A stretch of 39,649 nt of DNA from Candidatus Aquidulcis sp. (GTDB lineage: Bacteria; Chloroflexota; Anaerolineae; UBA4142). Below, piece after piece: positions 33,967-39,649 of this stretch; position 1 is the first letter of the stretch, and the number at the start of each line of letters is the position of its first letter. Under the pieces are notes generated by a model that was given only the letters and a program-made list of their open reading frames with translations, did no database searches and was not told the DNA's origin. The translations under genes were made by a program, and so were the position numbers. Location of the stretch: the NCBI GenBank assembly GCA_020723345.1, contig DYJA01000062.1:1-39649 (forward strand). The letters run 5' to 3'.

Positions 33967-34002
33967 GACTGTCCGAGCGAACAAAAGTTCGCTTTGAACA
34001 AA

Positions 34003-34050
34003 CCATCCAACTTCCAATTTCCAACATCTAACATCCAGTCTCCACGCTCC
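34003..34050. repeat. CCAACTTCCAATTTCCAACA repeat in the uvrA leader
   Basis: The words CCAACTTCCAATTTCCAACA and CTAACATCCAG recur at 21218-21254. An inverted relative (AATTGGAGATTGGAAATTC) lies at 33884-33902. Read in frame it would add 23 residues to UvrA from a TTG, which I reject as coding. Confidence 0.7.
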
Positions 34051-34062
34051 AATCTCAAACCT

Positions 34063-36924
<2,862 letters not shown>

Positions 36925-36935
36925 GATTTTCGACT

Positions 36936-37013
36936 GTAGGGGCAAAGCATTTTTTTGCGCCCTGAACAAAAGATAGCGAAGCCGAAGGACGCAAAAAAAT
37001 GCTTCGCCCTTAC
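36936..37013. repeat. GTAGG-ended inverted repeat supplying a start codon
   Basis: GTAGGGGCAAAGCATTTTTT(TGCG) at 36936-36959 pairs with 36990-37013 with two mismatches in 24. The right arm contains the ATG at 36999. Its T-run after the uvrA stop may also help termination. Confidence 0.8.
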
Positions 37014-37823
37014 ACCACTCTGGGAACAGAACAACACCAAAAACTCTTGCGCGCCATCGCTGATTTTTACACGAATGATCCGCGCGTTCTGGCGGTTGCC
37101 GTGTTCGGTTCGCTGGCGCGCGGAACCTGGGATCGATTTTCCGATCTCGATCTCGACGTCGTGATCGACGACGCTGTCCGGGTGAATCCGACCGAAGAGT
37201 TGCGGCGTTTGGGCGACGCGCTCGTGTCTGTTGGCGAACGCGTTGCGCTGATTGTTCCCAATGGCGATGATGCGGGCGATGTGGTGCTTGAATCACTGAT
37301 GGAATTTTCGATCCGCTATCACGCGCTCGCGACGACTAGCCCAAACATCGTGGACGATCTGCAACTTGTCGCGGGCAAAATTGATCAAGCGACGATGCAG
37401 CAGGTGGGTTTGCAGAATCGGCGCGCGCAAGATCAATCGCCCGGCGCGCGTCTCGACGCGTGTGTGCGGTACGCGGTCGGCGTGGACGTGGCAATCCACC
37501 GACGCCAAATCTGGATGGCAGTTGAATTGTTGCATCGCATGCGCGGCATCGTGATGGAGTTGTACGCCGCGACGCGCGGCGGCGAACGCCCGCTCAAGTT
37601 TTTCGATCAGCAAGACGCCGCGTTGCAAGCGCGCCTGGGCGCGACGCTTCCGCAGTTTGATTTGCTTGCGGTACAGCAAGCGTTCGCGCGATTCCTCGAT
37701 CTCTTGGAAAACGATCTGGCGCGATTTGCCAATTGCCGACTCAGCGACGCGCAGCGGCGCGTCGCGCAGCAAGTGCGCGCGCGGCAGGCGCAATTGAACT
37801 TGGACAGAGGAAACGATGAGTGA
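36999..37823 (+). CDS. Nucleotidyltransferase-domain protein
   Basis: This 274-residue protein has the Pol-beta-type nucleotidyltransferase motif VAVFGSLARGTWDRFSDLDL near residue 35, with GS and the two catalytic aspartates in SDLDLDVV, and a helical C-terminal half (about 130-270) resembling aminoglycoside- or KNTase-type substrate domains. It may transfer a nucleotide to a small molecule; the substrate is not evident. Its ATG and AAGGA ribosome-binding site come from a dispersed repeat, so the first four or five residues (MLRPY) are repeat-encoded. It overlaps the following methyltransferase gene by eight bases. Confidence 0.82.
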   Translation: MLRPYTTLGTEQHQKLLRAIADFYTNDPRVLAVAVFGSLARGTWDRFSDLDLDVVIDDAVRVNPTEELRRLGDALVSVGERVALIVPNGDDAGDVVLESLMEFSIRYHALATTSPNIVDDLQLVAGKIDQATMQQVGLQNRRAQDQSPGARLDACVRYAVGVDVAIHRRQIWMAVELLHRMRGIVMELYAATRGGERPLKFFDQQDAALQARLGATLPQFDLLAVQQAFARFLDLLENDLARFANCRLSDAQRRVAQQVRARQAQLNLDRGNDE

Positions 37824-38340
37824 TCCGAGCAAAATCGTCCAGCAACAATTCGGCGCGCACGCGCGCGCGTACGCGACGAGCGCTGTCCACGCGCAAGGCG
37901 AATCGCTCGCGCGGCTCGTCGAACTGACGAAGCCGCAGCGCGCTTGGAACGTGCTCGACGTTTCGACAGGCGCGGGGCACACCGCGCTGACCTTCGCGCC
38001 GCATGTCGCGCGCGTCGTCGCAACCGACTTGACGCCGCAAATGCTCGACGAGGCGCGAAAAATCGCGCAAGCGCGCGCAATTACGAATGTCGAATTTCGA
38101 CCCGCCGACGCGCACGCGCTCCCGTTCAATGACAACGCGTTCGACCTCGTGACGAATCGGATCGCGCTGCACCACTATCTCAACGCGCGCAAAGCGATGG
38201 CGGAAATGGCGCGCGTCTGCAAACGCGGCGGCATCGTCGCGCTCGTGGATAATGTCGTGCCGCCCGACCGCTTGACCGCGTTCTACATCAACGATTTCGA
38301 GAAATGCCTGAATCAATTACATACGGATCCATCGGTATAA
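37816..38340 (+). pseudogene. UbiE-like SAM methyltransferase, C-terminally truncated by an insertion
   Basis: The 174-residue reading frame has the class I methyltransferase motifs NVLDVSTGAGHTALTFAP, VVATDLTPQMLDEARK, EFRPADAHALPFNDNAFDLV and GGIVALVDNVVPPD. After AFYINDFEK (ending about 38304), where relatives continue with a further domain of 60-80 residues, the sequence turns into the tail of the neighbouring recombinase locus and stops at 38340. AGAGGAAA precedes the start. The gene probably lost its C-terminal region to integration of a mobile element; the rest should lie beyond the element. Confidence 0.78.
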
Positions 38341-39649
38341 CACAGGTCACGACTGCCTTTTCCTCCGTCAAATTGACGCGTACCCTCAGTAATTCCAAAA
38401 CCCGACGTTTATCCTCAAATGTTGGGGATTGCATGCCGTCAATGATATCCGCCCGGAATTGTAGAGCCGCCTCGATGTCAGCATCATTCAAGGGTTGTTC
38501 ACCCAACGCGGCTTCTAGCTCGTCTCGTCGTTTGATCCGCTCGGTGTGCAACCTTTCAAAATCAGCGATCTTTTCCTGCAAGGCTCTCCTGACTGTGCCT
38601 TCCGGGGTCTGGAATAGAGCATCGGCAAAATCAGCCGCTTTGGTTTCATCTTCGGCGATCTGCTCTATCACAGTCGCCAACTGCTCGCGCTTGGGCGCTT
38701 GTGCATTCCGCTCTCTTTTCTGTGCCTCATGCAAAGCCGCCTCGAATTCTGCGCGGTTTTTGATTATACCGAGAAGGTAGTTCCAAACCTTTTCTTCAAG
38801 CAAGTCGGCGCGTACTTGCTTTCGCTTACACAGATCTTCTGCCATATCTTTGAAACGGTATTTGCCACAACGATAAAACCGCTGGCCACATCCATCAGAC
38901 CGCGCGCATCCAGTCATTGCATAATTACAAATCTCGCACCGAATATGACCAGACAGCAAGTAATCGCGCTTGGCATTACGCTTGGCTCGCAGCTTGTTGT
39001 GCTCCCGTCGTTTATGCGCTGCTTCAAACAGTGACTGTTCAATAATCACAGGCACCGGCACAGCCACCAATTGATCAGTCGGTCGGCGTCCTCTATTTCC
39101 ACGATTCCCCATGCGCTTACCATATCGCCACACCCCTGTGTATGTTTCATTGGCGAGGATACCCGAGACCGTCTCGATACTCCAGACATGGTTACTGCGT
39201 TTGCGGCGAATCTTGCGCCCGTCTGTTTCGGCAGGTGTGGGAATTCCCATCTGGCTCAATCGGAAAGCGATTTGCCACAAGGTCATCGGCTTGTTGTCGT
39301 CATCGCCGGAGACATACCATTGATAGATCCATCGTACGATCTTTGCGTGGCCCTCGACAATAATGAGACGCCCGTCAGCATAGCGGTATCCATAGGGTGG
39401 TTTACCGTTACCTACAACTTTCCCCTGCTGAGCCTTAGTGTATCGCCCGCGTGACGTTCGCTCGATTATCTTCTTCCGTTCATCGCTCCCTTGCCATCCT
39501 TTGATGACAAGCACAATGTCCAGTTCGCTTTCGATCTTGCCAATGTCGCATGCGTGGACTTCTATGCCAGCCCGAATCCATATCCGCACAGTTGCTAGCG
39601 TAGGTTTTGTGCAACCAGACGCCGAATCGTTTACTAGGCTGAAATTCCG
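38288..39649 (-). CDS. Large serine recombinase, 5' end outside the window
   Basis: The frame is open to the right edge, so the N-terminal catalytic resolvase part is mostly missing from view; the visible 453 codons begin within it. Seen are the resolvase-to-recombinase linker ERKKIIERTSRGRYTKAQQG, the recombinase domain (GNGKPPYGYRYADGR, IPTPAETDGRKIRRKRSNHV, GILANETYTGVWRYGKR), a zinc ribbon (CEICNYAMTGC, FYRCGKYR, LCKRKQ) and a long coiled coil (about 38370-38720). Such integrases drive directional integration of phages and conjugative elements. Its 3' end lies exactly at the disrupted methyltransferase, the normal place for an integrase next to its attachment site. Confidence 0.92.
   Translation of the reverse strand, partial: RNFSLVNDSASGCTKPTLATVRIWIRAGIEVHACDIGKIESELDIVLVIKGWQGSDERKKIIERTSRGRYTKAQQGKVVGNGKPPYGYRYADGRLIIVEGHAKIVRWIYQWYVSGDDDNKPMTLWQIAFRLSQMGIPTPAETDGRKIRRKRSNHVWSIETVSGILANETYTGVWRYGKRMGNRGNRGRRPTDQLVAVPVPVIIEQSLFEAAHKRREHNKLRAKRNAKRDYLLSGHIRCEICNYAMTGCARSDGCGQRFYRCGKYRFKDMAEDLCKRKQVRADLLEEKVWNYLLGIIKNRAEFEAALHEAQKRERNAQAPKREQLATVIEQIAEDETKAADFADALFQTPEGTVRRALQEKIADFERLHTERIKRRDELEAALGEQPLNDADIEAALQFRADIIDGMQSPTFEDKRRVLELLRVRVNLTEEKAVVTCVIPMDPYVIDSGISRNR
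38295..38340. other. Probable left attachment junction of an integrated element
   Basis: Homology to the methyltransferase ends near 38304 within the codons for NDFEK, and the recombinase reading frame ends at 38288 on the other strand, so the junction lies in the last codons of both. The core sequence cannot be defined without the other end. Confidence 0.6.

Follow-up and report, generated by a model that had tools for sequence, protein, structure and literature searches.

How does a methyltransferase (MT) gene come to end tail to tail against a gene for a large serine recombinase (LSR), and what becomes of the host function that the gene encoded? We address this question in a stretch of 39,649 nucleotides (the window), which is the entire contig C92 of G000, a draft genome of 6.3 Mb in 132 contigs. 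All genomes compared here are draft assemblies and those named are MAGs. The reading that we favour, with a probability of about 85 %, is that an LSR element has split the MT gene and brings a complete copy that replaces the host allele, and that an insertion sequence (IS) subsequently interrupted the recombinase gene of the element copy in the window.

A methyltransferase gene split at codon 163

The features of the window are the following:

33994..36924, + strand: uvrA-like gene, host left flank; relatives 84-87 % identical lie directly upstream of uninterrupted MT
36999..37823, + strand: nucleotidyltransferase-domain protein, host left flank (PF01909, 1.5e-7)
37816..38304, + strand: N-terminal 163 codons of the split SAM-dependent MT, host half on the attL side (Methyltransf_11, 9e-24)
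38288..39592, − strand: LSR gene, 3' part only (434 codons), from its Recombinase and Zn-ribbon domains and its relatives
38295..38303, + strand: attL core TTTCGAGAA, from junction comparison; present in degenerate form in the attR on C35 and in attL and attR of G008, G012 and G017
39595..39598: CTAG beside the IS end, a probable 4-bp target duplication
39599..39649, + strand: terminal 51 bases of the IS that interrupts the LSR, up to the contig break; an identical 55-mer stands at other contig ends

The homology of MT to its full-length relatives stops at codon 163 of 256 (…YINDFEK), and the frame then runs through 11 unrelated residues, CLNQLHTDPSV, to a stop. An initial sequence-only reading of this DNA had put the end of the homology at about 38304 and the junction in the overlapping tails of the two genes. 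Both statements hold, with MT homology reaching 38304 and the LSR gene ending at 38288 on the opposite strand. Eight relatives provide the empty site for comparison: in six genomes of the same family as G000 and two of another family of the order (G003, G004, G005, G007, G009, G013, G014 and G016), MT is uninterrupted and reaches residue 253-256. A relative that is uninterrupted and naturally ends at the same residue would speak for a short gene, and none was found among the uninterrupted genes examined. Where the gene does stop at codon 163, as in G008:C63, G012:C164 and G017:C326, it is partial and lies tail to tail with a related LSR. A paralogue on contig C33 of G000 itself, 256 residues long, continues past the cut codon as FEK-ERDRSHNW.

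The C-terminal half that MT lacks was found elsewhere in G000, near the end of contig C35. Downstream of intact MT in G009 and G005 lie a second methyltransferase gene (D) and then a radical-SAM/TRAM gene (E); on C35 both D and E follow further on, with about 6.5 kb between the MT half and D that is absent from the intact relatives. On the other flank, intact MT adjoins relatives of the uvrA-like gene (a name that we presume from its sequence) in G009:C16 and G005:C142. The half on C35 lies behind sequence matching the right end of the element in relatives, and is 67 % identical to intact MT of G009 and 52 % identical to the C33 copy. The proposal that a mobile element has integrated in the MT gene is thus borne out by the uninterrupted relatives, by the displaced half beside an element-like arm and by three further genomes with the same junction.

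The recombinase, its attachment sites and the insertion sequence

The window LSR matches Recombinase (1.6e-17) and Zn_ribbon_recom (2.5e-10). It lacks the Resolvase domain that its relatives have, because the IS has cut the gene. Its identity is 69 % to the LSR of G008, which is complete at 528 aa and has the Resolvase, Recombinase and Zn-ribbon domains, 69 % to that of G012 and 61 % to that of G017. The end of the LSR gene crosses attL (38288-38300), such that host-derived DNA to the left of the core supplies the final codons and the stop; in G012 the frame (L068:6393-6455) extends about 60 codons further into MT, so that integration changes the C-terminus. In G008, G012 and G001:C200 the gene immediately upstream of the LSR encodes a stand-alone Resolvase-domain protein of about 125 aa (L067:3785-4171, L068:4261-4632 and L113:2553-2924). 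This protein is probably catalytically dead, because it reads YARTA at the position of the catalytic serine where the LSR reads YARVS, and it could be a partner or regulator.

A short repeat at both ends of the element had been sought, and what we found is a degenerate core common to attL on C92 and attR on C35. Left junctions read (A/G)A(T/C)TT(T/C)GA(A/G)AA, after which comes element DNA, TCAAT standing nine bases on; right junctions consist of the element arm, the core again and the C-terminal half of MT. The core common to all four genomes (G000, G008, G012 and G017) narrows to TTYGA; in the right core of G000 one base is changed and one is added. In G008 and G012 the arms, AATTG-T-TATTA before the core and TAATATCAAT(T/A)G after it, form an imperfect inverted repeat, as would be expected of a serine-integrase attP. 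Displaced C-terminal halves starting at the FEK motif stand behind homologous element arms in G000 (C35), G008, G012, G017 and G019. Several marks of an LSR integrative element were found, namely the three LSR domains (in G008), a short common core and eight uninterrupted sites. We read the junction in the window as attL of such an element, whose LSR would insert at a TTYGARAA core inside MT; integration separates the first 163 codons from the rest.

The sequence-only reading had the LSR beside MT, which stands, but needs correcting in that the gene does not simply run off the contig: it is cut at 39595 by the IS, which that reading had not noticed, and that is why contig C92 ends. The identical 55-mer is found at the ends of C92, C52 and C30, with 51 of its bases in C86, in each case next to unrelated flanks; the opposite IS end is found in five places (the start of C30, C62, C85, C125 and C132). 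CTAG stands at seven of the nine IS ends in G000, the remaining two reading TTAG and CTAT, and homology of the window LSR resumes at T95-V96 of the G008 protein. Based on these two observations the IS is placed within the window LSR, after about codon 94. A Resolvase family search of G000 returned three loci only, none of which is a piece of the window LSR; the missing catalytic N-terminal part is for this reason probably on an unbinned contig. Since its LSR has been cut, as seen up to the contig break, the copy of the element in the window is probably immobile.

The IS is multi-copy, with the terminal repeat AGCGTAGGTTTTGTGCAAC and a CTAG target, and it breaks the G000 assembly at C30, C52, C62, C85, C86, C92, C125 and C132. 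The G000 bin holds the IS ends only, the interior being absent. Terminal repeats alike within 2 mismatches occur in nine other genomes of 60 searched, with no transposase read. The CTAG targets are reminiscent of IS5/IS701-type elements.

A profile scan for the LSR in 84,980 species gave 11 loci. Together with 10 others (some at the same place) 21 LSR loci were checked, and MT lies beside the LSR only in G008, G012 (twice) and G017. A relative 55 % identical to the window LSR (L112 in G060, an Anaerolineae MAG) splits a DUF255 gene (PF03190) at …PHFEK, and the tail after the cut, CVNQIHLALPE, resembles the tail of the window MT. In the same genome a complete DUF255 gene (a frame of 722 codons) was found close to a TrwB-like gene. 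With element ends lying on separate contigs, this TrwB-like hit (1.4e-8) is the only sign of relaxase or conjugation genes. Four C-terminal-only DUF255 pieces with similar arms lie on the G060 contigs C17, C142, C72 and C3, and all begin at the HFE motif, two with HFEK and two with HFER. The DUF255 case lends support, short of proof, to the idea that these elements commonly bring along a copy of the gene they target. At L113 the LSR stands at the 3' end of a gene that we assume to be PEPCK-like.

A change within the core itself led us to consider whether the element copy is immune to its own recombinase. The core codon AAR is CAR in four of five element copies (G008, G012, G017 and G019, with C33 keeping AAR) versus one of eight uninterrupted hosts (G009). 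We do not claim such immunity because the distant relative G033 also has Q at this codon, the rows compared are related, and two of the four split DUF255 C-halves in G060 share the changed core (FER) of the complete copy.

A complete methyltransferase copy inside the element

The same junction, at the same codon and with an LSR 61-69 % identical to that of the window, occurs in three further Chloroflexota genomes (G008:C63, G012:C164 and G017:C326), of which G017 belongs to a different family from G000. We read G008 and G012 as separate acquisitions of one element type because their LSRs are 94 % identical, their element MT copies have diverged less (dN 0.07) than their host halves (dN 0.18 and 0.29) and their left flanks differ. 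A CRISPR array with 32 repeat copies at a spacing of about 73 nt (L107:1-2470) lies on the G012 contig that holds the left end of the element.

Each carrier examined has one complete MT copy, located just inside attR wherever attR is on the contig. In G008, G012, G017 and G019 it lies on the same contig about 90-820 bp before the displaced half, and it is inside the element because attR comes after it. The distance is about 820 bp in G008 and G012, with a gene of 192 residues (ORF192, no Pfam match) or its relative in between, and about 115 bp in G017. In G019 a single contig (C436) carries, in this order, an MT N-terminal remnant that contains a stop, some 5 kb of cargo including a heavy-metal P-type ATPase and an ArsR regulator, the full MT and the MT C-terminal remnant. 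Its left flank is the same gene pair as in G017, and there is no LSR within the 18 kb read.

For the window element, the presence of a complete MT is deduced from C33 and C35. C33 has the same MT-ORF192 pair as G008 and G012 and the arm on C35 matches the arms of these genomes, and for these reasons both contigs most likely belong to the far end of the window element. No overlap joining the ends of the two contigs was found, and C33 could lie elsewhere. C33 also holds, in a row (L006:18-5463), genes for a DnaE2-type polymerase, an IMS-family polymerase and a RecA-like protein; this row, possible cargo, is presumably of the imuA-imuB-dnaE2 type.

The element copies are under purifying selection, with dN/dS between copies of 0.10 and 0.12. 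Selection on the host halves is weaker (0.20-0.28 for G008/G012 and C35/G009), with G017N/G014 (0.11) and C92N/G012N (0.15) as exceptions. Because of the purifying selection on the element copies, we think that the element copy replaces that of the host. It would take over the host function, and integration would then amount to an exchange of alleles and not to a knock-out, a refinement that was out of reach for the sequence-only reading.

It is conceivable that the element is an ordinary recombinase-borne island in which MT is chance cargo, the host function being lost or unneeded; we consider this improbable. The remaining cargo is variable and, with 6 of 20 genomes of the order showing no full-length MT match (drafts may miss it), the gene is not essential in the order, as this explanation would have it. 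Against it, every carrier examined has a complete copy of precisely the gene that is split, placed by attR where attR is on the contig. Chance cargo would also be at odds with the purifying selection on these copies, and the second target, DUF255, again combines a split copy with a complete one.

The origin of the complete copy was examined with trees of the two gene halves, leaving out G013:C109 (frameshifted), short fragments in G011 and G001, the N-terminal pseudogene and C-terminal fragment of G019, and more distant hits. The host halves of G017 group with G014 and G016 of its own family (N half 100/100, C half 98/100) and stand apart from the G017 and G019 element copies; in family f2, to judge from these trees, the element copy did not arise by duplication of the host gene. 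For the C half, the element copies of C33, G008 and G012 form one group (97/90). For the N half, C33 is joined to the host fragment. A single clade of all element copies is neither shown nor rejected: the N half does not unite them (AU p 0.08), and the C half gives a support of 58/32 for a common side.

A block comparison of MT copies, from which the G017C row was excluded, indicates that C33 is a mosaic: its codons 1-40 and 164-256 are of the element type, and codons 41-163 mostly resemble the host. A second mosaic is found in G015 (L124:5067-5831), with a host-type first half, an element-type second half and a switch near codon 120. Since both genes are mosaic, host halves and element copies evidently recombine. 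In G015 recombination could have removed the element, and the mosaic is likely a scar of its loss. Conversion is also our explanation for part of the failure of the trees to unite the element copies.

These results bear on the idea that the full MT is a pre-existing tandem duplicate of the host gene, of which only the older copy was split, with no replacement strategy involved. A duplicate of this kind should most resemble the host fragment, as codons 41-163 of C33 mostly do, and the N-half tree joins C33 to that fragment at 100/96. The same gene, however, is element-type in codons 1-40 and 164-256; in the first two blocks compared its identity is 93 % and 82 % to G012, versus 65 % and 62 % to the host fragment. 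The nearest match of the full copy in G017 and G019 is not the gene of its own host, and attR follows the full copy, which puts it within the element. Moreover, full-length MT occurs in 14 of 20 genomes of the order, one each except in G005, which has in addition a paralogue of 42 % identity, and G013, with a further copy that is frameshifted, and none of the 20, including those with an unsplit gene, has two intact close copies. We consider the tandem duplicate improbable, slightly more so than chance cargo. A misassembly truncation or a naturally short gene, without any integration, is very improbable: a MAG contig with a nearby break, in a window that ends in a repeat, might suggest it, but the same junction is seen in four independent assemblies with different flanks, and the displaced half has been found.

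Known systems and a possible turnover of host alleles

Gene splitting followed by restoration is already known, and genomic islands are stated to restore, in many cases, the genes into which they integrate (PMC12884075). A 65-kb island in tmk of Pseudomonas putida KT2440 splits a gene whose lost activity is restored by the last gene of the island, and restoration is reported for other genomes carrying it too (PMC10653934). As with the MT element, the target is split and the island supplies a replacement; as described there, however, that island uses tyrosine-type recombinases and not an LSR, its replacement is a non-homologous phage-type dNMPK and not a copy of the split gene, and its function was shown by experiment, whereas the MT element is known from sequence (PMC10653934). 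Islander islands are likewise marked at the far end by a displaced fragment of the split target, and function is restored in them (PMC4383910). They differ in using tyrosine integrases and tRNA or tmRNA genes, with an attP fragment completing the target at the junction, where the MT element has a separate whole protein gene (PMC4383910). Regeneration of the Islander type was not what we found, since attL reads CLNQLHTDPSV-stop after codon 163 and the whole gene is at the other end. A survey of LSR elements also has LSRs splitting protein-coding genes site-specifically; its passages on disrupted targets mention no replacement copy, unlike the MT element, which carries one (PMC10083194). In the literature on replacement copies, LSR elements and Chloroflexi, subscription papers lying outside the search, we found no description, in the text available, of a serine-recombinase element with a whole orthologous copy of its target.

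The MT element would be a case, spanning several genomes, in which an integrative element splits a protein gene and brings a whole orthologue to replace it. Its att sites can be put to the test for this serine recombinase clade in Chloroflexota. From such replacement one would also expect that integration costs the host little, that housekeeping alleles are exchanged horizontally and that mosaic genes remain as scars once the element is lost.

More tentatively, and with odds that we put somewhat below even, allele replacement may be part of the integration strategy of a whole LSR clade, in which each lineage splits the conserved F-[EK]-K stretch of a housekeeping gene and carries a complete homologue. 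If this is true, repeated rounds of integration, as in G060 with its five DUF255 pieces and one full copy, together with scars such as those in G015 and C33, would result in a horizontal turnover of host alleles.
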